A DNA stretch of 37,797 bases from Planctomycetota bacterium. Lineage in GTDB: Bacteria > Planctomycetota > Phycisphaerae > Phycisphaerales > SM1A02. The number at the start of each line of letters is the position of its first letter. The first letter of the stretch is position 1. The DNA is taken from assembly GCA_022562915.1 (NCBI GenBank), contig JADFOJ010000026.1, forward strand, positions 1 to 37,797, written 5' to 3'. The position numbers and the translations under genes are program-made. Positions 14,421-24,779 of this stretch are shown here, piece by piece. The notes under the pieces are model-generated. The model was given only the letters and a program-made list of their open reading frames with translations. It did no database searches and was not told where the DNA came from.

Positions 14421-14440
14421 GGCGTGCGTGTCCGGTGTGT

Positions 14441-16621
14441 TCAGGCGGCCTTGTTCGTGTAGAAGCTTCCCCTGGTCGCGGCGATCTTGTCGATGAGCGG
14501 GGCAGCCTTGAACCGATCGCCGAACTGGCGAGCCAGCTCGCCGAGCCGATCCCTGATCTCGACCACGCCGCGCTCGTCGGCGTACTTCAGGAGGCCGCCG
14601 CGGAAAGGTGCGAACCCGGTCCCCATGACCATCGCCATGTCGAGGGTCTCCGGCTCCGCGATGACGCCTTCCTCCAGGCACCGCGCCGCTTCGTTGACCA
14701 TGATGAGGATCGCCCGATCGACGATCTGCTCGTCGGTGAGTTCACGCGCGGAGATGCCGTCCTCACGTCGTGCCTCCCGGGCCAGTCGCTCGACGCGGCG
14801 GTTGGGCTTCTTGCGGCCGTTGCGATACCGGTAGAACCCCGCGCCCGTCTTGCGACCGAGGAATTCGCCGGTCCTCACCACGCTGCCGAGCGCGCCGGGC
14901 ACCTGCATGCGTTGGCCGTACGCCTCTTCGAGGACCTTGGCGACGGTGTAGCCGACGTCCAGCCCGACCTCGTCGACCAGGGCAAGCGGCCCTATCGGCA
15001 TGCCGAAACCCTCCAGCAGGGTGTCGATGCGCCGGAGCTCGATGCCCTCCTCGAACATCCACGCCGACTCGATGAGGTACGGCAGCAGGATCCGGTTGAC
15101 GAGGAACCCGGCGCAGTCGCCCACGATCATCGGCGTCTTGCCCATTCGCTTGACGAGTTCGGCCGCGGCCACGACCGTCTGTTTCGTCGTCTGCGGCCCG
15201 GCCACGACCTCCACCAGCGGCATCTTCGGGACGGGGTTGAAGAAATGCAGCCCGACGAAACGCTCCGGGCGCTCCAGGGCGCCGGACAGTTCCTTCAGCG
15301 ACAGCGACGAGGTGTTCGTGCAGATCAGCGTGTCGGGACCGACGACCTTCTCGATTGCCGCCAGCACGGTCTTCTTGACCTGCATGTTCTCCGCCACGGC
15401 CTCGATCACCACGTCCACGTCGCCGAAGCCCGTGTCGTCGACGGTCGGGCCTATTCGATGCATGGCGAGCGTCATCTCGGACTCGGTCATCCTGCGGCGC
15501 CTGACCAGCGCGCCGAACGCGGACGCGGCCGCGGCCATGCCCTTTCCAAGCGCCGGCCACGAGACGTCCTTGAGACGGACGTTGACCTCGTTGCGGGCAA
15601 GCGACCACGCGATCCCGCTGCCCATGATCCCCGCGCCCACGACCGCGGCCCGCGTGACGGGCCGTGTTCCGTCGCCGGCGCAATGCGCCTTCTTGAGTCG
15701 CTGCCCCGCCTGGAAGAGCCAGACCAGGTTCCGGCTGATCGGCGTGACCGCCAACCGCGCGAAGGCCTCGGTCTCGATCGCCGCCGCCGTCTCGCCGGCG
15801 CGGCGGTATGTCCGGGCCACGACGTCCAGTGCGCTCAGCGGGGCGGGATAGTGGCCGCGGGTCCGCGCCAGGACCTGCCGCCGCGCCTGGCGAAGGACAA
15901 GCCACTGGCCGACCGACGTCGACGTGACGAACCTGGCCGACCAGCCGCGGCAGCGCCGCCGGCGCCGTGCGACCTCACGTTGACCCTGCCTGGTGAGCAC
16001 GTTCTCGATGAACCGCCGCGCCTGCTCCTCGACGAACGGCTCGCCGGTGATCGCGTCGGCAAGGCCGATCCGCGCGGCGCGGCGCCCGTCAACCGGGCGG
16101 CCCGTAAGAATGAGCTTCAAGCCTTGCGGCAGGCCGACGACCCTCGGAATGCGCAACGTGCCGCCCCAGCCGGGGATGATCCCCAGGTTCACCTCCGGAA
16201 CGCCCAGGCTCGTCGAAGAATGGTCGGTGACGAGCCGGTAGCGGCACGCCAGCGCCAACTCCAGGCCTCCGCCGAGGCATGTTCCGTGGATCACCGCCAG
16301 CGTGGGCACCGGCAGCGCGGCGAGCTTCTCGAAGATCCGCTTGCCCAGGTCAGCCTTGGCGGCGGCGTCGTCAAGATCCGTGATCCCGGCGAGCTCGTTG
16401 ATGTCGGCGCCGACGACGAAACTGTTTTTCTTGGCGCTGCGTATGACCACGGCCCGAACGGCGCCGCCGACCTGTTCGTCCAGGATCGACTCCAGCTCAG
16501 CCAGCGCCGTTGCGGTGAGCTTGTTCACCTTCTCGCCGAAGAGGTCGAACGTCAGCCAGGCGATGTTGTCGCTGTCAAGGGTGATGGTCCATGCACTGTT
16601 CGCACCGGTTTCACTGGTCAT
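14441..16621 (-). CDS. fadJ: Multifunctional enoyl-CoA hydratase / 3-hydroxyacyl-CoA dehydrogenase
   Basis: 726 residues carrying the second and third steps of beta-oxidation. The N-terminal crotonase domain (1-210) has both catalytic glutamates: Glu121 in LGGGLELALA and Glu143 in GVPEVNLGIIPGWGG. After an Arg-rich linker (a five-Arg run at 219-223) comes the NAD-binding domain with VVGAGIMGSGIA (~327-338), then VIEAVAEN and the catalytic His in GLHFFNPVP. Two C-terminal helical domains follow (PIGPLALVDEVGLDVG). Together with the thiolase 2 nt upstream it makes a FadI/FadJ-type trifunctional complex. The start codon sits just after the thiolase stop, so translation is probably coupled. Confidence 0.94.
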   Translation of the reverse strand: MTSETGANSAWTITLDSDNIAWLTFDLFGEKVNKLTATALAELESILDEQVGGAVRAVVIRSAKKNSFVVGADINELAGITDLDDAAAKADLGKRIFEKLAALPVPTLAVIHGTCLGGGLELALACRYRLVTDHSSTSLGVPEVNLGIIPGWGGTLRIPRVVGLPQGLKLILTGRPVDGRRAARIGLADAITGEPFVEEQARRFIENVLTRQGQREVARRRRRCRGWSARFVTSTSVGQWLVLRQARRQVLARTRGHYPAPLSALDVVARTYRRAGETAAAIETEAFARLAVTPISRNLVWLFQAGQRLKKAHCAGDGTRPVTRAAVVGAGIMGSGIAWSLARNEVNVRLKDVSWPALGKGMAAAASAFGALVRRRRMTESEMTLAMHRIGPTVDDTGFGDVDVVIEAVAENMQVKKTVLAAIEKVVGPDTLICTNTSSLSLKELSGALERPERFVGLHFFNPVPKMPLVEVVAGPQTTKQTVVAAAELVKRMGKTPMIVGDCAGFLVNRILLPYLIESAWMFEEGIELRRIDTLLEGFGMPIGPLALVDEVGLDVGYTVAKVLEEAYGQRMQVPGALGSVVRTGEFLGRKTGAGFYRYRNGRKKPNRRVERLAREARREDGISARELTDEQIVDRAILIMVNEAARCLEEGVIAEPETLDMAMVMGTGFAPFRGGLLKYADERGVVEIRDRLGELARQFGDRFKAAPLIDKIAATRGSFYTNKAA

Positions 16622-16623
16622 GG

Positions 16624-17916
16624 CTACGCGGCCTCCACGGTCACCGCGGCCCCCTGGCCGCCGCCGACACACAGTGTGGCGAGCCCCCATCGCTCGCCGC
16701 GCCGCCGGAGTTCCCGCAGCACGGTGAGCAGAAGCCGGGTCCCGGTCGCCCCGACCGGATGCCCCAGCGCGATCGCCCCGCCGTTGACGTTGAGCCGGCC
16801 CGGGTCAAGCTCCCCGACGGCGTCGCTGAGGCCCAGGTGTTCCCGCGCGAAGCTCGCGGAGGCGAAGGCCCGCTGGTTGGCGATGACCTGGACGGCAAAC
16901 GCCTCGTTGAGCTCGACGACATCGAAGTCGCTCATGCTCCGGCCGGTCTGCTGCAGGAGCCTGGCGGTCGCGTAGACCGGCCCGAGGCCCATGCGCCGCC
17001 CGTCCAGCGCCGCGTACGCCCAGTCACCCACGTATCCGAGCGGCTCGACGCCCAGTTCCTTCGCCTTGAGCTCGGAGGCGAGCACGAGCCCCGCGGCGCC
17101 GTCCGTGATCGGGCAACTGTTCCCGGCCGTCACCGTGCCCGCCTGCCGGTCGAAGTACGGCCGAAGCTTCGCCAACGCCTCCATGGACTGTTCCGGACGC
17201 GGTCCGTCGTCCGCGGTCTGGGCATGGTCCCACGCCGGCGGCCCGATAACGGCGATGATCTCCTCCTCGAATCTCCCGGATTCCGCGGCAGACACGGCCT
17301 TCTCGTGGCTGGCCAGCGCGAACTCGTCCTGCTCGCGGCGACTGATGCCGAACTCGCGGGCCAGCACCTCCGCCGTCTCACCCATGTTGAGCCCGCAGAC
17401 GGGATCGGTGAGACCAAGCTGCAGCGCGACGATCGGCTTCAGGTGCGACGGTCTGAAGCCGAGCAGGGCCCGGAGCCTGGCTCCCGGCGAACGCGCCTTC
17501 AGGAGCTTCAGGAACAGCGCCGTCATCGGCGCGCTCACGAGAAGCGGTATCTGGCTCATCGACTCGGTCCCGCCGGCGATCACCAGGTCGGCGCGGCCCG
17601 CCTGGATGTGCATCGCCGCCGTCGTCACCGACTGGATGCCCGACGCGCAGTTGTGGTGAACGGTGTGGCAGACCATGCTCCGGGGCAGGCCTGCCTTGAG
17701 AGCGACCACCCTGGCGATGTTGGCGGCGTGGGCCGGCTGGCCGACATTGCCGAAGATGAGTTCCGAGACCTGCTCCGGGTCGATGCCCGTGCGAGCCAGC
17801 AGTTCCTTGACGACGATCGCGCCAAGATCGTCCGCAGGGACGAATCGAAGCGGCCCGCCGGACTTGCACTGCGGCGTCCGAAGCCCATCCAGAATGGCAA
17901 CCCGTGGTCTGTCCAT
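16624..17916 (-). CDS. fadI: Acetyl-CoA C-acyltransferase (3-ketoacyl-CoA thiolase)
   Basis: Last step of beta-oxidation: thiolytic cleavage of 3-ketoacyl-CoA to acetyl-CoA and a shortened acyl-CoA. The 430-residue length is nearer FadI (~436) than FadA (~390). All thiolase residues are present: nucleophilic Cys90 in HHNCASG, His386 in GGAIALGHPVGATG, and the second Cys416 in LCVGGGQG; the NEAFA motif is also there. A GGAG lies 10 nt before the start. It is the first gene of a four-gene operon, behind a TATGAT box and two inverted repeats that may be the fatty-acid-responsive control site. Confidence 0.94.
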   Translation of the reverse strand: MDRPRVAILDGLRTPQCKSGGPLRFVPADDLGAIVVKELLARTGIDPEQVSELIFGNVGQPAHAANIARVVALKAGLPRSMVCHTVHHNCASGIQSVTTAAMHIQAGRADLVIAGGTESMSQIPLLVSAPMTALFLKLLKARSPGARLRALLGFRPSHLKPIVALQLGLTDPVCGLNMGETAEVLAREFGISRREQDEFALASHEKAVSAAESGRFEEEIIAVIGPPAWDHAQTADDGPRPEQSMEALAKLRPYFDRQAGTVTAGNSCPITDGAAGLVLASELKAKELGVEPLGYVGDWAYAALDGRRMGLGPVYATARLLQQTGRSMSDFDVVELNEAFAVQVIANQRAFASASFAREHLGLSDAVGELDPGRLNVNGGAIALGHPVGATGTRLLLTVLRELRRRGERWGLATLCVGGGQGAAVTVEAA

Positions 17917-18023: not shown

Positions 18024-18074
18024 GGAAGCGGTGTGAGACCCCCTGCAAGCCCCCCCACATATCACCACGAGGCT

Positions 18075-20969
18075 TTACGGACCTTCCGGCGCCAGGACCA
18101 GGCCCGTGAGCTGGAACGGCGCCCAGTACGCCGGGTGCGGACTCCGGAGCAGACCGTGGAGTTGTGCCTGCCGCAGCGCGCCGGCGGTCGTGTGCGAACC
18201 GGCCATCCACGCCTCGTAGAACTCTTCCATGATCGGCGCCGCGGTCTCGTCGTCGACCCGCCACAGGCTCACCAGCACCGACGAGGCGCCGGCGGCCAGG
18301 AACCCGCGGAGCAACCCGACGAGTTCGTCCCCGGTATGCACGAGGCTCCGGCCGGTCTCACATCCGGAGAGGGTGACCAGCCCTGCATCCAGTCGAAGCG
18401 AGAAGATGTCCCGGACGGTGAGCCAGCGATCCGCCAGCCGCACGCCGGACCCAAGCGGCGTGGCCGGGGCGAACCGGGCATGGCAGGCGAGGTGAATGAG
18501 ATCGGCCCGCGGCACCGCCGCGCAGAACCTCGCGACGCTTGCGTCCGGGCCGATAAGCGTCGTGGTATCGTCGCCGAGCAACGCCGCGACGCGGCGTGCT
18601 TCGGATTCGATCCGCGGCGCGACCTCGTCGGCGACACCGACCACGACGGCCCGCCTGCCGGTGGTCTGCCTGGCGGGTCGCCGGGCGAGCTGCGCGTACA
18701 CGCCGGCACTGGGGGCGGTGTGAATCTCGTGCCGCTGTACGAGATAGTGCGTCCCATCCCAGAGGGCATTGAACGGCAGCATGTGCAGCGGACCGTGCGG
18801 CACGATGAGCAGGCGATCCTCCTCCGGGAAGAGTCTTCGCAGGGGGGCCATCAGCATCCGGTCGAGCGCCGCGAGTTCCGCCACGACATCGTCGAGCAGG
18901 CGCTCCGCCCGCCAGCCCTCGTGCGCCCCCGGCCGCAAGGCGCGGTTCATCTGGAACTGAAGTCGTGCCATCCGGTCCTCAAGTTCGACGACAGGCCCCA
19001 GCGTCCGGCAGACGACCGGCTTGCCCTCCGACACGACGAACGCGAGGACCTCGCCGCCGCTGCCGGCGAATTCGATCAACGTGGTCCTTTCCGGAAGGGC
19101 CGCGACCGCCGCGTCGAGGTCCGCCGGCGGGGCGTACAACGTCACGGCGCCGCGCGTCGTCGACAACCGGCTTTCCAGCGCCTCCAGGCGGTGCTCGCGG
19201 TCGACGATCGCGTCGTGCCACGAGGCGTCGGCGCCCGCGGCAACGTCATCGCCGAGACGGCTGTACAGACCGCTGAGTTCGGCGCGCAGCGCGTCGTACG
19301 CCTCCACCAGTTGCTGCTCCTGCGGGTCGGCCGCAGGCCGGTCGGAGCCGGAGACATCCGGCTCGCCCTGGCCCGGTTCAACCTGGCCCGGCTCGACCTG
19401 CCCCCCCAGGACCTCCAGCAGCAGGCGGCTCTTGGCCTGCTCGGCGACGGCGAAAGCCCTCCGGACCGACTCGTCACCGCCGCGCTCCAGCAGGACCGCG
19501 AGAAGGTCGTCGTACACGCCGAGCCGGTCGCTCAGAAAGGCGCCGCGAAATCGAATCGCGTGCAGCGTTCCTCGCACGCGTTCGATCTGCGCTGCGGCCG
19601 CCTCGAGATTGCTCACGGCACCCTGGAGGTCACCTTGTCGCCGGCACAGCCGCCCCTTGGTATGCAGCAGGTCCGCGAGCAACGGCGCGAGATCGAGCCG
19701 GCGGACGGTTTCCAGTGCCGCGGCGAGCTCGGCGGACGCCATGTCGAGCGATCCCTCCTCGAGCGCAAGCCTCGCCAGCAGGTACCGTGCCGTCGCCGAC
19801 TCGATCGGGCGGTCGTGGAGTACGCTCAAAGCCGCATGGATGAGTCGCCTGGCCTCCGCCGCCAGCCCGTTGGCGGCGGCAAGCTCGGCGCGGACGAGGT
19901 CCACGCGGGCCCGGGCCGAAGCGTGCCCCAACTCGTCGAAGGCGCGCGCCGCCGCGGCGAGGGCCGTCTCGGCCTCGCTGAGTCGTCCCAGTCGCACGAG
20001 GGCCCGCCCGAGACCTGCCCGCGCACGCGCCGCTTCGAGGGCCTGCCCGGCCCGATCGAGCTGGGGCAACGCGGCCTCGTAGAGGTCCAGCGCGTCGGTG
20101 GGCAGCCCCAGGACGCTCATCGCCTCGGCCTGCTCGGTCAGCAGGCGGGCGAGGTGCCCTTCAGAGTGCCGCGATTCGAATTGCCGCCTCGCCCGTTCGA
20201 AGTGATACACGGCCCGATGCAGCAGCCCGCGCCTGGCGGCGAGGTCGGCGAGGTTGCCCTCCACCACCGCGGTCATGAGCGACGCGTCCGCCCGTTCGCA
20301 GTGCGCAACGGCCGAGGTGAAGGCGTCCTGCGCGCCGCTGAAGTCGTTGAGCACCAGCAGTGCCACACCGCGATTGTTGTCCACGGTCCCCTTCGACAGC
20401 GGTTCGTCACCGATGCGCGGCCGGGCGCGGTCGAAGTACTCCATGGCTCGGGCCGGATCGTCGTGCCGCTGGTACATGATGCCGATGTTGACCTCGGCCC
20501 GGGCGGCAAGGGCATCCTCGTCGGCGTCCAGGAACGCGCGCCGGGCGGCCTCGCCGGCTTCGATCGACTCGTTGAACCGGCCGAGTTCGCCCAGCGCCTG
20601 CATTGACCGAAGGCGGGCCCGGCCGGCCTCGACGGGTCGGCCGGCTTCCTCGGCCAGCGCCGCGGCATCGGTGCACTGCACCCATCCTTCTTCGAGCCGC
20701 CCCGCGTTACAGAGGGCGTGACCACGCGCGCGGCGGGCCAGGGCGCGCCCGAGCGAGGTGCCCACGAGGTCCGCCACCTCGACGAGGGTTTCGGTCGCCG
20801 TAAGTGCGCGCGCCACGTCCGTGACGGCGAGCTGCTCCGCTTCCAGGCCGAGCTCACCGAGCGCAGCGTCCGCGTCATCGCAGCCGCGCACGAGCGCCGC
20901 CTGCTGCTGCCTCGGAAGCGCCAGCAGGGCATCGAGGTCGATGCTGCTCCCGGAGGACGGGTCGGTCAT
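18075..20969 (-). CDS. TPR-CHAT protease
   Basis: 964 residues, cytosolic. Residues ~60-440 are a run of tetratricopeptide-type helix pairs (for example GRLEEGWVQCTDAAALAEEA and NRGVALLVLNDFSGAQDAFT). A Gly/Gln/Pro/Glu linker (~523-550) made of a tandem 5-residue repeat follows. The C-terminal ~300 residues are a CHAT caspase-like domain: LLIVPHGPLHMLPFNAL, His830 in HLACHARF, Cys870 in LSGCETG. The His-Cys spacing of 40 fits an intact peptidase. The start overlaps the stop of the anti-sigma-like gene as ATGA, so translation is coupled and that protein is the obvious candidate substrate or partner. TPR-CHAT proteins in type III-E CRISPR (Csx29) are activated proteases acting in a sigma-factor circuit; here no CRISPR gene is present. 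Confidence 0.92.
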   Translation of the reverse strand: MTDPSSGSSIDLDALLALPRQQQAALVRGCDDADAALGELGLEAEQLAVTDVARALTATETLVEVADLVGTSLGRALARRARGHALCNAGRLEEGWVQCTDAAALAEEAGRPVEAGRARLRSMQALGELGRFNESIEAGEAARRAFLDADEDALAARAEVNIGIMYQRHDDPARAMEYFDRARPRIGDEPLSKGTVDNNRGVALLVLNDFSGAQDAFTSAVAHCERADASLMTAVVEGNLADLAARRGLLHRAVYHFERARRQFESRHSEGHLARLLTEQAEAMSVLGLPTDALDLYEAALPQLDRAGQALEAARARAGLGRALVRLGRLSEAETALAAAARAFDELGHASARARVDLVRAELAAANGLAAEARRLIHAALSVLHDRPIESATARYLLARLALEEGSLDMASAELAAALETVRRLDLAPLLADLLHTKGRLCRRQGDLQGAVSNLEAAAAQIERVRGTLHAIRFRGAFLSDRLGVYDDLLAVLLERGGDESVRRAFAVAEQAKSRLLLEVLGGQVEPGQVEPGQGEPDVSGSDRPAADPQEQQLVEAYDALRAELSGLYSRLGDDVAAGADASWHDAIVDREHRLEALESRLSTTRGAVTLYAPPADLDAAVAALPERTTLIEFAGSGGEVLAFVVSEGKPVVCRTLGPVVELEDRMARLQFQMNRALRPGAHEGWRAERLLDDVVAELAALDRMLMAPLRRLFPEEDRLLIVPHGPLHMLPFNALWDGTHYLVQRHEIHTAPSAGVYAQLARRPARQTTGRRAVVVGVADEVAPRIESEARRVAALLGDDTTTLIGPDASVARFCAAVPRADLIHLACHARFAPATPLGSGVRLADRWLTVRDIFSLRLDAGLVTLSGCETGRSLVHTGDELVGLLRGFLAAGASSVLVSLWRVDDETAAPIMEEFYEAWMAGSHTTAGALRQAQLHGLLRSPHPAYWAPFQLTGLVLAPEGP
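19359..19403 (-). repeat. 15-nt tandem repeat encoding the TPR-CHAT linker
   Basis: Three near-identical 15-nt units encode GQVEP, GQVEP, GQGEP (residues ~523-537) inside the TPR-CHAT gene. The repeat lies exactly between the helical repeats and the region leading to the CHAT domain. It looks like a flexible linker that can change length by slippage. Confidence 0.7.
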
Positions 20970-21601
20970 ACGATCCTGATGTCCGGAACCACCACCGTCG
21001 TCTTCGGCAGATGCAGGTGAAAGTCCCATGTGCCGGGTCTCAGACGGAGCATGAACGCGCCGCGCCGATCACCGACGGTGGTCTGTTCCGGCGTCAGGCT
21101 CCCCGCGCGGCAGACATCGACTCTGAGCGACGGAATCGGCTCGCGCGTGGCGAGCTGGCCCACGACCCGCCAGGACCCGTCCGGATCACTCTCCACGGGT
21201 TCCGCGGCGAGGTCGAGTTCACCGGTCAGACCTTCCGGCCCCGAGAGCGACCAGGTCATCTGAAAGCTGGTGGTCGGACCGCGAAGTCCGGCCGCGAGGG
21301 GCATGACCCGGCTGTCGAACATGATGGTGGCGATGATCCGCCCCACCTCGACGACGCGGTCGGCCAGGTTCGCCCCCGGTGCACTCCGGAAGATCGCGCG
21401 GGCCGACGCGGATGCGGCCGGCGAGGGATCCGCGCCGTCGTCTGCCAGCAGCGTGCGGCGGGCCAACCGGTAGCGGGCCACCGTGGCCGACGCCCGCGGG
21501 TCGCGGCTGAGCATGGCCTTGACGGTCGCGGCCTCGGTGCCGCCGAGGTCGCCGGCGGCGTATGCGATCAGTGTCGTTCGTGGAATCCGTTTTCCGGTCA
21601 T
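20966..21601 (-). CDS. Soluble anti-sigma-like protein between sigma factor and TPR-CHAT
   Basis: 211 residues; no database family assigned by me. The first ~45 residues (LIAYAAGDLGGTEAATVKAM, then LSRDPRAS and an Arg-rich helix) resemble the helical anti-sigma domain that usually reads LxAYxDGELxxxExxxVExxL, but without the zinc-binding His/Cys set. A middle segment contains ATIMFDSRVMPLAAGLRG. Residues ~130-211 look like a small beta-sandwich, with a SLRVDVCRAG strand and a closing TTVVVPDIRI. No convincing membrane segment is present, so it should be cytosolic, unlike most anti-sigma factors. It begins 32 nt after the sigma gene with a GGGGG 6 nt before ATG, and overlaps the TPR-CHAT start by ATGA. 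I infer that it holds the sigma factor and is cut by the CHAT protease; neither is shown directly. Confidence 0.75.
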   Translation of the reverse strand: MTGKRIPRTTLIAYAAGDLGGTEAATVKAMLSRDPRASATVARYRLARRTLLADDGADPSPAASASARAIFRSAPGANLADRVVEVGRIIATIMFDSRVMPLAAGLRGPTTSFQMTWSLSGPEGLTGELDLAAEPVESDPDGSWRVVGQLATREPIPSLRVDVCRAGSLTPEQTTVGDRRGAFMLRLRPGTWDFHLHLPKTTVVVPDIRIV

Positions 21602-21633
21602 GTCAACCCCCTGTGGTTCATCCAGCAGAGGCC

Positions 21634-22287
21634 TCACGACGGGTCGTGATACTCTCGTGCTGACGATTCCTCGTCGGGATCCGCCGACAGACCCAACTCG
21701 AGGAGGATTTTCTCCAGCTTCTCGAAGCAGCGGGCCCGTGTCGGGCCGATGCTTCCGACCTTCATGCCCAGTTGCTCGGCGATCGTGTCGTACCGGGGCT
21801 GGCCGGGGGCCAGGAACAACGCCGTCAACAGGCCCTCGCATCGGCCACCGAGTTGACGCAACGCCTGGCGAACCAGGTGGCGGGTCTCCCACGTCTCCAG
21901 GAGGTCGTCACTCGGCTCGGAGACGTTCTGGATGACCCGGTCCAGATCGACGTACCGGCCGGACCGCTTTCCGACGCGGTAGCACTCCCTGTGCGTGGTG
22001 CGAATCAGCCACGCCGAGAGGCGGCTGCGGTCCCGAAGCTGGCCGAGCCTCTCGTAGAGGATGGCAAAAGCCGTCTGGAAGACATCGTCCGCGTCAGCGT
22101 CGGAGAGGCCGTATCGCCTCGGAATCGAGTACACGAGGCGCCCGAACCGGCCCACGACCTCGTCCCATGCCTCTGAATCGCCTCCCAGGCACGCCTCCAC
22201 GAGCTTGGCGTCGTCGAACGACGCTGCCCGGCGGCGCGGACCTGCCTTGGGGGGGACGGTGGGCACGGAGAGTAGCCTAGCAGCCAT
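21634..22287 (-). CDS. ECF-like sigma-70 family RNA polymerase sigma factor
   Basis: 217 residues with the two-domain ECF layout. Region 2 (~28-95) includes DADDVFQTAFAILYERLGQL and RLSAWLIRTTHRECYR. Region 4 (~145-205) includes a helix-turn-helix around YDTIAEQLGMKVGSIGPTRA and RCFEKLEKIL. It directs RNA polymerase to a small set of promoters. It heads the three-gene sigma / anti-sigma-like / TPR-CHAT operon and is divergent from the histidine kinase gene across 399 nt. No clear ribosome binding site precedes the ATG at 22287, and the frame stays open upstream, so a start a little further upstream cannot be excluded. The first ~25 residues (Pro/Arg-rich) are a non-conserved extension. Confidence 0.9.
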   Translation of the reverse strand: MAARLLSVPTVPPKAGPRRRAASFDDAKLVEACLGGDSEAWDEVVGRFGRLVYSIPRRYGLSDADADDVFQTAFAILYERLGQLRDRSRLSAWLIRTTHRECYRVGKRSGRYVDLDRVIQNVSEPSDDLLETWETRHLVRQALRQLGGRCEGLLTALFLAPGQPRYDTIAEQLGMKVGSIGPTRARCFEKLEKILLELGLSADPDEESSAREYHDPS

Positions 22288-22333
22288 GCCGGGAGAAGGA
22301 ACTCGCGTCAGCCCGCCGGCAGAACCGGTGGCA

Positions 22334-22555
22334 TCATCGCGTTGCGACCCCTGGCGACCGGCTGGAAGCCGACCGTCTCCATCGGCCGTGTTGCGAGGGG
22401 CCGTGGGCAGGGTGGAAGCCAGGGCTGTCGGCTGCCGGCGGGTGACGGCTGCCGGGCGCGGCGCCGATCCGTGCCAGCACCGCCGCCACGACGGCCGACA
22501 CCACCAGCGACAGCGTGTGCCGGTCGTCTCGCATTGGTCGTTTCATTCCGGGCAT
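22334..22555 (-). CDS. Possible small membrane protein (doubtful)
   Basis: A 73-codon frame with GGAG about 9 nt before its ATG. Its N-terminal half could be a single membrane helix (HTLSLVVSAVVAAVLARIGA) after a basic start. The rest is Pro/His/Ser/Arg-rich and resembles translated non-coding GC-rich DNA. It points the same way as the sigma gene and ends 46 nt before it. It may be spurious; homologues would be needed to accept it. Confidence 0.2.
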   Translation of the reverse strand: MPGMKRPMRDDRHTLSLVVSAVVAAVLARIGAAPGSRHPPAADSPGFHPAHGPSQHGRWRRSASSRSPGVATR

Positions 22556-22564
22556 TGACGGTCA

Positions 22565-22643
22565 CTCCGCATGAACGGAGCCCCGCCGAAAATCAGGGGA
22601 TACCGACTCCCCTGCACTCAACGGGGAATGAGGCGGATTCCCC
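22565..22643. promoter_or_regulatory. Cluster of three inverted repeats upstream of the kinase gene
   Basis: CTCCG-N6-CGGAG (22565-22580), CAGGGGA-N7-TCCCCTG (22594-22614) and GGGGAAT-N7-ATTCCCC (22623-22643). The last two share GGGGA/TCCCC arms, and a further ATTCCC half-site lies at 22654-22659. The cluster ends 43 nt before the kinase ATG and looks like a set of binding sites for a dimeric regulator, perhaps the response regulator of this operon. Confidence 0.5.
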
Positions 22644-22686
22644 AGTCCGGAGTATTCCCACCGCCTCTGGGGCCTCTTCTTGAGGG

Positions 22687-24132
22687 ATGACCCTGCGACC
22701 GAGGCTGCATCACGTCTACTTCGCGCTGGCCGCGTTCGATCTGCTGACGGTCTCGCTCGGCCTGTACCTGATCAACCGGCTTGCGGACATCTACGAGGAC
22801 TCGGTGGCCGTCAACCAGGTGTGGGCGACCCGCCTCAATGAGTACTCCGTACTCAGCGGGCTGGCGGCGGCCGTCAACGCGCCGGGCAACGACGTCTTTC
22901 AGAGCGGTGATATCCGCGGGGAGTCCGCCCGGCTCGCCGGTGCGCTGGCCCGGTTCGATGAACGTGCTGCCATAGTTCGCCGGGACCTGGTGCGCAATGT
23001 CGGCGCATCGGAGTCACCGGAACTCCTGGCGGCGTTCGATGCGATTCCGCCCGCGATGCGCGAGATGGCTGTACAGGCGCAGAGTATCTTCTCGTACCTG
23101 CAGCGTCGCGAGCCGGAGCAGGCCGCACGGCGCATGGCCCGGATGGACCGCGAATTCGCGAGCGTGAACGCCGCACTCGCCCGTCTCAGCGGGCGGGTTC
23201 GCGCCATACAGACGCTGCACTTCCAGCAGCAGATCGCCCACGCGGCGGGGGTGCGTCGTTTCGAGCTCGTCATCGCAAGCCTGGTCGTGCTGATGGTCGC
23301 AGGCGTGACGTTCTACGGATCGATGCTGGCCACGCGCATGCGGCAGAACCGTGCCGAGCTGGCACGCCATCGTGATCACCTCGAGGAGCTCGTCGCCGAG
23401 CGCACGGCGGAGCTTCGGGCTTCCCACCAGCAGCTCAGGCTCGCCGAGCGTCTCGCCTCGGTCGGCACGCTCGCCGCCGGGCTCGGCCACGACATGAACA
23501 ACCTGCTGTTCCCCGTTCTCTGTCGACTCGACGCGCTGGATGCCGCCGGGCTCGACGACCAGGCAGCCGAAGAGGTCGCCCAGGTACGGCAGTCGATCGA
23601 GTACCTTCAGCAACTGAGCGACGGGTTGCGGCTGATGGTCCTGGACCCCGATGACCCCGACGCCTCCCGGCACACCACCGACCTGCGTTCATGGGCCGAC
23701 GAGGTCGCCCCGCTGCTTCGCGCGGCACTGCCGCAAGAGTCGACACTTGATTACGATATTCCCGACGACGTCCCGCCGATCGCCGTCGCGCCGCATCGGC
23801 TCACGCAGGCCGTCTATAACCTGGTGGTGAACGCTTCGGAGGCCATTTCCAAGGGCGGGACGATCACCGTCCGCGCCGAGGTCCAGGGCGAGGGGCGCCT
23901 CGTCCGCGTCAGCGTCACGGATAACGGCAAAGGCATGCCCGCCGAGGTGGCCGGCCGGGCCCTGGAGCCGTTCTTCACGACCAAGAAAAGACACCTGTCC
24001 ACCGGCCTGGGCCTCGCGCTCGTCCACGGCGTCGCGACATCCGCAGGCGGGTCGGTCGAGATCGAGTCGTCGCCGGGCGCCGGCACGACCGTCACGTTGA
24101 ACCTGCTGACCCGAAGAGGAGCCTGTCCGTGA
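22687..24132 (+). CDS. Sensor histidine kinase
   Basis: 481 residues. Two membrane helices (about 10-30 and 193-215) enclose a ~160-residue helical periplasmic sensor domain. There is no evident HAMP domain: the second helix runs straight into a coiled coil (HRDHLEELVAERTAELRASH) and the dimerisation helix with the phospho-acceptor His268 in LGHDMNN. The ATPase domain has the N-box (QAVYNLVVNASEAI), G1 (DNGKGMP), F-box (EPFFTTK) and G2 (STGLGLALVHG), so it is complete. The stop overlaps the GTG start of the response regulator (GTGA), making it the cognate kinase. The signal is unknown. Start support is weak: GAGGG abuts the ATG. Confidence 0.92.
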   Translation: MTLRPRLHHVYFALAAFDLLTVSLGLYLINRLADIYEDSVAVNQVWATRLNEYSVLSGLAAAVNAPGNDVFQSGDIRGESARLAGALARFDERAAIVRRDLVRNVGASESPELLAAFDAIPPAMREMAVQAQSIFSYLQRREPEQAARRMARMDREFASVNAALARLSGRVRAIQTLHFQQQIAHAAGVRRFELVIASLVVLMVAGVTFYGSMLATRMRQNRAELARHRDHLEELVAERTAELRASHQQLRLAERLASVGTLAAGLGHDMNNLLFPVLCRLDALDAAGLDDQAAEEVAQVRQSIEYLQQLSDGLRLMVLDPDDPDASRHTTDLRSWADEVAPLLRAALPQESTLDYDIPDDVPPIAVAPHRLTQAVYNLVVNASEAISKGGTITVRAEVQGEGRLVRVSVTDNGKGMPAEVAGRALEPFFTTKKRHLSTGLGLALVHGVATSAGGSVEIESSPGAGTTVTLNLLTRRGACP

Positions 24133-24779
24133 CCAAGCCGATTCGTCTCCTGTGCGTTGATGACCACGCGTTTCTTGCCGAGGGGATCAAGACAAGGCTC
24201 AGCCTGGAAGAGGACATGGAGTTCGTGGGCTGGATCGAGTCGGTCGGGGAATTGTCGCGCGAAATCCGCCGGACGGACGCGAACATCGTGCTGCTGGACA
24301 TCGAGATGCCCGGCACCGATTCATTCGAGGTCCTGCGGAATATCAAGCGGGAGCACGCCGGCACGCGGGTCATCATGTTCAGCGCCTTCGTGCGCGACCA
24401 CTACATCGATGCAGCGGTCAAGGGGGGCGCGTGGGGCTACGTCTCCAAGAGCGATACCCCCACCAGCGTCGTCGAGGCGATCCGGAAGGTGAGCCGCGGC
24501 GAGTTCGGGTTCGGGCCGAAGGTCCTTCAGCGCTGCCGTACCGGCGGCCGCAACGGCATGGAACCGTCGTCGCGTCTCGGCCAGCTTTCACCGAGAGAAC
24601 TGGGCATTCTGCGATTGATCGCCAAGGGAATGTCCCGCACCGACATCGCCGAGACCATCCACCGCAGTCCGAAGACCGTGGACAATCATCGGGCAGCGAT
24701 CATGGCCAAGCTGAAAATCCACGATCGCGTCGAGCTTGCACGCTTCGCACTGCGCGAGGGACTGGCCGAGGCCGGGTAG
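24129..24779 (+). CDS. NarL/FixJ (LuxR-type) response regulator
   Basis: 216 residues, GTG start overlapping the kinase stop. The receiver domain has the acidic pair Asp11/Asp12, phospho-acceptor Asp57 in VLLDIEMPG, Ser85, and Lys107 in YVSKSD. The output domain (about 150-212) is a GerE/LuxR helix-turn-helix: LSPRELGILRLIAKGMSRTD, then RSPKTVDNHRAAIMAKL. It is therefore a DNA-binding transcription factor controlled by the adjacent kinase. The inverted-repeat cluster at 22565-22643 is a candidate for its own binding site. Only ~60 nt separate it from gatE. Confidence 0.94.
   Translation: MTKPIRLLCVDDHAFLAEGIKTRLSLEEDMEFVGWIESVGELSREIRRTDANIVLLDIEMPGTDSFEVLRNIKREHAGTRVIMFSAFVRDHYIDAAVKGGAWGYVSKSDTPTSVVEAIRKVSRGEFGFGPKVLQRCRTGGRNGMEPSSRLGQLSPRELGILRLIAKGMSRTDIAETIHRSPKTVDNHRAAIMAKLKIHDRVELARFALREGLAEAG

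Follow-up and report, generated by a model that had tools for sequence, protein, structure and literature searches.

A conserved operon of sigma factor, inhibitor-shaped protein and caspase-like protease without CRISPR

Introduction

There is experimental precedent for a system that brings together a TPR-CHAT protease, an inhibitor and an ECF sigma factor, namely Csx29-Csx30-CASP-sigma, in which Csx30 uses its N-terminal part to bind the sigma factor, while CHAT2 grips its C-terminal domain and cleavage takes place in a loop of that domain (PMC10028731). A further experimental precedent, CalpL-CalpT-CalpS, consists of a cytosolic protease, its anti-sigma substrate and an ECF sigma factor (PMC11417357). 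As for gene context, PMC8999054 reports, after Huang 2015 and Casas-Pastor 2021, that the ECF54 group of sigma factors is accompanied by carboxypeptidase, subtilase and CHAT proteins, and that control by proteolysis “without an anti-sigma factor” has been proposed for it.

We describe here a conserved operon that encodes a sigma factor, an inhibitor-shaped protein and a caspase-like protease, without CRISPR. It is located in the window, by which we mean the whole 37,797-nt stretch of planctomycete DNA that was analysed, and a sequence-only reading of this DNA had proposed that the three genes form a protease-controlled transcription switch.

Results

Organization of the operon

The operon comprises the following features:

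21634-22287, minus strand: ECF-type sigma factor gene (217 aa, sigma2 and sigma4)
20966-21601, minus strand: middle gene, encoding a soluble anti-sigma-like protein (211 aa)
18075-20969, minus strand: TPR-CHAT protein gene (964 aa)
22288-22686, no strand assigned: presumed operon promoter region, divergent, between the sigma and histidine kinase genes

All coordinates agree on the minus strand with the tandem arrangement that had been proposed: the sigma and middle genes are separated by 32 nt (21633-21602), and the middle and CHAT genes share an ATGA overlap (20969-20966). The sigma protein matches Sigma70_r2 (PF04542, 2.6e-12) and TIGR02937 sigma70-ECF (2.4e-18), the latter over residues 39-194, spanning sigma2 and sigma4. 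The promoter is presumed from the layout only. Histidine kinase and LuxR-type response regulator genes (22687-24779) diverge from the operon. The long plus-strand ORFs at 18033-20606 and 14435-16975 were rejected as genes, as they look like mirror frames of high-GC genes.

Conservation of the three genes

We found the middle protein in 18 of 151 genomes (the window's genome and its relatives), with three copies in the window's own genome. The trio is kept in the same order and on the same strand at 18 of the 20 middle-protein loci fetched; the two exceptions are L023, which ends at a contig end, and L038, which has the middle protein alone. A CHAT-alignment search gave further loci: the 14 examined that score above 400 bits all have a sigma and a middle gene, and neither partner is found near six distant CHAT genes from related genomes. 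Among the 147 distinct CHAT loci examined, 82 carry the complete trio with its gene order unchanged, most of them in Phycisphaerae and some in Chloroflexota; by contig name, the trio is present in Phycisphaerae, other Planctomycetota and two Chloroflexia genomes, with further ones in Chloroflexota. Because 82 distinct loci keep the trio while the six distant CHAT genes have neither partner, the association is more than chance.

The sigma alignment, searched against the 151 related genomes, gave 40 matches of at least 158 bits, the next full-length match scoring 87 bits; on these scores, the window sigma belongs to a discrete subfamily. Within this clade, 38 of the 40 sigmas sit in a trio; of the other two, one is truncated where its contig stops and one has a universal stress protein gene as its neighbour. 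The CHAT-anchored and sigma-anchored searches converge on the same loci. The co-occurrence of the three families in relatives, which the sequence-only reading had put forward as a check, is thus borne out by these 38 sigmas and the 82 loci. As a side observation, a close subfamily sigma without CHAT or middle gene (L225:6361-7020) adjoins a universal stress protein gene. As for the Streptomyces plasmid sigma matches, the annotated one lies outside any trio and the other record has no annotation (H32 and H34). One clade member counts against a switch: L121:4300-5970 keeps the middle, CHAT and subtilase genes with an AhpD-like gene in the sigma's place, and has no sigma directly upstream.

The suggestion of CRISPR independence is supported in that cas1 was not found in the window's genome, which is 93% complete, and that clustering of the conserved neighbours of the trios showed no cas-like family.

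The middle protein: probable anti-sigma half

The middle protein falls into two halves, in which we distinguish the following:

21374-21601, minus strand: predicted anti-sigma domain (residues 1-76, four helices, no zinc ligands; AF2 model md8afea38871b, pLDDT 84)
20969-21334, minus strand: beta-sandwich domain, about residues 90-211, CarboxypepD_reg/transthyretin-like, no enzyme (AF2 pLDDT mostly >92)
21266-21313, minus strand: conserved flexible loop, residues 97-112 (Arg107 codon 21283-21281)

The window protein has no Pfam match. It contains a single Cys, lacks the Hx3Cx2C motif and shows no hydrophobic stretch (the highest Kyte-Doolittle mean over 19 residues is 1.14), which agrees with the earlier description of a protein lacking both zinc ligands and a membrane helix; zinc-redox sensing is accordingly rejected for it. 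The NCBIfam antisigma family matches it at 9.8e-5, well under the whole-protein cut-off of 100 bits, and is found in 11 of 20 homologues (best 1.8e-7), the ChrR family being found in seven; an RseA match is at 0.026.

The AF2 model of the full-length protein (pLDDT 87) shows four or five helices followed by the beta-sandwich. Foldseek with the whole protein returned mostly beta-sandwich matches, with E-values above 0.009, and the N-terminal domain was therefore modelled alone. Among 350,542 chains compared, the best structural match of residues 1-76 is SigE-bound ChrR (2z2s_F, Z 8.1, 3.1 A over 58 residues), followed by SigL-bound RslA (3hug_L, Z 5.8), and the first unrelated fold scores Z 2.2; one has to keep in mind that the Foldseek E-values are weak and that a Z near 8 may reflect a common arrangement for small helical domains. 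It is nevertheless hard to call it chance that, for a predicted model, the two top families are both sigma-bound anti-sigma factors, and the sequence models point the same way. The anti-sigma-like N-terminus that had been noticed in the letters thus takes the form of a class-I anti-sigma (ASDI) fold, a four-helix N-terminal domain in a protein encoded next to an ECF sigma gene.

The zinc anti-sigma motif Hx3Cx2C is kept in 18 homologues, trio members among them, and zf-HC2 is above its cut-off in one Chloroflexota member; for these reasons, the window protein is a descendant or a sister of zinc anti-sigma factors, with the zinc lost. We consider it highly probable that the operon's sigma has the middle protein as its anti-sigma factor, the binding between the two being predicted. 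Mean-field DCA on 75 sigma/middle pairs gave top scores equal to those of shuffled pairings, with too few sequences to exclude coevolution, and these scores come chiefly from a small number of columns close to the termini of the sigma alignment. In some members, little or nothing is left of the anti-sigma part (61 of 82 trios fill at least 40 of 70 columns), and it is absent from the Nonomuraea protein discussed below; it is, therefore, not the sole link between sigma and CHAT.

The middle protein: beta-sandwich and Arg107 loop

The beta-sandwich has Ig-like/FN3-like structural matches, and CarboxypepD_reg is matched in homologues; this CarboxypepD_reg/transthyretin-like half is a structural domain and not a carboxypeptidase. 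The most conserved residue of the middle protein is Arg107, an Arg in 98% of the 82 trio proteins and also in 16/16 homologues without a detected sigma neighbour. It lies in a loop between the first strand and the core, where model confidence drops (mean AF2 pLDDT 74 for residues 101-110 vs 93-95 in the flanking blocks). From its conservation and predicted mobility, the loop is a candidate cleavage or docking site.

Two Chloroflexota genomes carry a single ORF upstream of CHAT that joins a sigma-like domain to a zinc-type anti-sigma/beta-domain protein (L177:6903-8465 and L178:2687-4207); the fused sigma part is divergent (TIGR02937 at 5e-4 in one of the two) and aligns with clearer sigma factors found at the same position in sister loci. 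In other Planctomycetota and in Chloroflexota, the beta-sandwich stays beside CHAT without a detected sigma, often without the anti-sigma part. On account of these fusions and of this retention, the anti-sigma part appears to pair with the sigma and the beta-sandwich with CHAT. Five planctomycete loci without a detected sigma (L182, L184, L187, L190 and L201) have a subtilase gene after CHAT and, beyond it, genes for one or two small beta-domain proteins, and some of the small proteins in this type of layout have an Hx3Cx2C-like N-terminus.

The TPR-CHAT protein

The protease domain is placed as follows:

18102-18875, minus strand: CHAT caspase-like domain, residues 699-956 (His830 18482-18480; Cys870 18362-18360)

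This domain matches PF12770 at 4.1e-59 and comes with TPR repeats. The catalytic dyad that had been called intact is found at these codons, and H830 and C870 are invariant in the 80/80 trio proteins reaching these alignment columns; the protein has the catalytic His and Cys expected of an active CHAT peptidase. Against the Csx29 model, the window protein (P0003) scores 42 bits (cut-off 300), vs 53 bits for a CHAT without sigma neighbours, other CHATs giving 20-60 bits or no match. Membership of the Csx29 family was rejected on these scores, which leave no special closeness to Csx29; the two are kin only at the level of their CHAT domains.

A fourth gene and a promoter motif

A subtilase gene (PF00082, 3e-39) whose product has an N-terminal signal-like segment lies directly 3' of CHAT in 58/77 trios, according to neighbour clustering, in which it is the only widely shared further neighbour; examples are L124:8825-11335 and L030:10851-12293, and some of these subtilases have FG-GAP repeats. 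It is absent from the window copy, is present in the C120 copy of the same genome and, in other Planctomycetota, is likewise found with CHAT genes that have no detected sigma. The operon usually has four genes, including a secreted subtilase, a point missed in the sequence-only reading.

A CAGGAG-N14-TGATACA-like motif lies upstream of 17 of 70 sigma genes (those of L081, L125, L137, L150 and L153 among them), where the remaining sequence of the loci would predict 0.4, with a matrix trained on the same sequences. It was not found upstream of the window sigma gene. We take it as a lead only, to a possible autoregulation.

Discussion

Proposed mechanism and alternatives

Our preferred reading, in which our confidence is evenly balanced, is a cytosolic switch where the anti-sigma factor holds the sigma, CHAT cuts the middle protein and the sigma is released. 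In the resting state, the sigma would be clamped by the middle protein's N-terminal domain, much as SigE is by ChrR, and the beta-sandwich would be a handle held by TPR-CHAT, offering both docking and a cleavage target. The TPR part would sense a cue, the CHAT domain would cut the middle protein, perhaps at the Arg107 loop, and the sigma, its inhibitor lost, would direct transcription; the secreted subtilase encoded by the same operon in most relatives is probably an output. Supporting this switch, we count the trio in two phyla, the ChrR/RslA fold, the zinc motif in homologues, the Chloroflexota fusions, the beta-sandwich kept by CHAT without sigma, the invariant dyad, and the CASP-sigma and CalpL-CalpT-CalpS precedents. 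The protease-controlled switch of the sequence-only reading is, on the whole, partly supported, with gene conservation, the anti-sigma fold and the lack of a membrane anchor in its favor; that CHAT acts by cutting the middle protein is a step that we would accept or doubt with equal ease.

The beta-sandwich could instead sense a signal, a change of shape freeing the sigma as in ChrR, with CHAT (and the subtilase) as effectors of the sigma regulon. ChrR, the closest fold to the N-terminal domain of the middle protein, has its anti-sigma domain at the N-terminus and a beta-rich, cupin-like sensor after it, and sigma operons often contain output genes. Soluble anti-sigma factors of known mechanism mostly act by conformational change (PMC8999054). 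We consider this alternative unlikely, though worth keeping in mind, as the beta-sandwich follows CHAT genes even without a detected sigma, suggesting a physical partnership with CHAT, and no ligand pocket was identified.

It is improbable that the sigma itself is the target of CHAT and/or other proteases, which would keep its level low, with the middle protein as an adaptor, since the anti-sigma fold present in the window and in most Planctomycetota members provides a simpler inhibitor; proteolysis of the sigma has already been proposed for ECF54 from gene context (PMC8999054), and at the Nonomuraea locus the genes for sigma, beta-domain protein, CHAT and subtilase come without an anti-sigma domain. 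An immunity or cell-death module, in which CHAT would do the killing and the sigma/anti-sigma pair would do no more than set its dose, recalls predicted conflict systems that have been described as containing caspase genes alongside ECF sigma and TPR genes (PMC8195603) and is very improbable, as none of the three proteins matches PADLOC, no effector-associated domain was found, and a single type of architecture runs across many genera.

Relation to ECF54 and significance

At the Nonomuraea locus (L154), the layout is ECF54-like, with subtilase, sigma, a 147-aa CarboxypepD_reg-type beta-domain protein and CHAT in a row, and the sigma encoded there scores 3e-41 with the profile of the trio sigmas. 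Together with the ECF54 context given in PMC8999054, proteolytic control included, this layout means that the cassette was noticed before. The papers searched yielded no description of the “carboxypeptidase” protein as a soluble anti-sigma factor in two phyla.

We tentatively propose, with somewhat more doubt than belief, a widespread CRISPR-independent, Craspase-like circuit in which TPR-CHAT senses an internal cue and cuts a zinc-less anti-sigma factor at its Arg loop, the sigma then driving a secreted protease. If true, TPR-CHAT protease-released sigma switches would be common among bacteria, occurring in at least two phyla, rather than peculiar to CRISPR, and type III-E CRISPR would have recruited a pre-existing kind of switch. 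The many Planctomycetota CHAT proteases would gain a substrate, the ECF54 picture of “no anti-sigma factor” would be corrected, and a small phage-free system for testing CHAT activation would be at hand.

Comparison with known systems

The parallel drawn at the outset with Csx29/Csx30/CASP-sigma, a three-part logic, is sound as logic (PMC10028731). Like the type III-E system, the window operon combines TPR-CHAT, an ECF sigma and a two-part inhibitor, here with a predicted N-terminal sigma binder and a predicted CHAT-bound C-terminus; unlike it, the operon lies in a genome without cas1, and its inhibitor has 211 aa vs 565 aa. Csx30 is not among the NCBIfam matches or the PDB structural matches of the middle protein, a result on which we rest no claim.

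With CalpL-CalpT-CalpS, the operon shares a cytosolic protease (CHAT in the window), a predicted anti-sigma substrate and an ECF sigma, whereas CalpL is CRISPR-linked and, instead of being a TPR-CHAT protein, is a Lon protease whose SAVED domain senses cA4. The likeness to ECF54 is one of gene context, through carboxypeptidase-type, subtilase and CHAT neighbours of the sigma (in relatives, 58/77 with the subtilase); in contrast to the group as described, most members from Planctomycetota and Chloroflexota have a CarboxypepD_reg-type protein with an anti-sigma fold, and the subtilase is missing from the window copy.

Finally, the middle protein resembles ChrR-SigE and other soluble class-I anti-sigma pairs in its anti-sigma domain fold (Z 8.1) and its solubility, but it differs from ChrR in having no zinc ligands, in having a protease gene in its operon, and in carrying a beta-sandwich in place of the cupin-like sensor that ChrR is generally known to possess.
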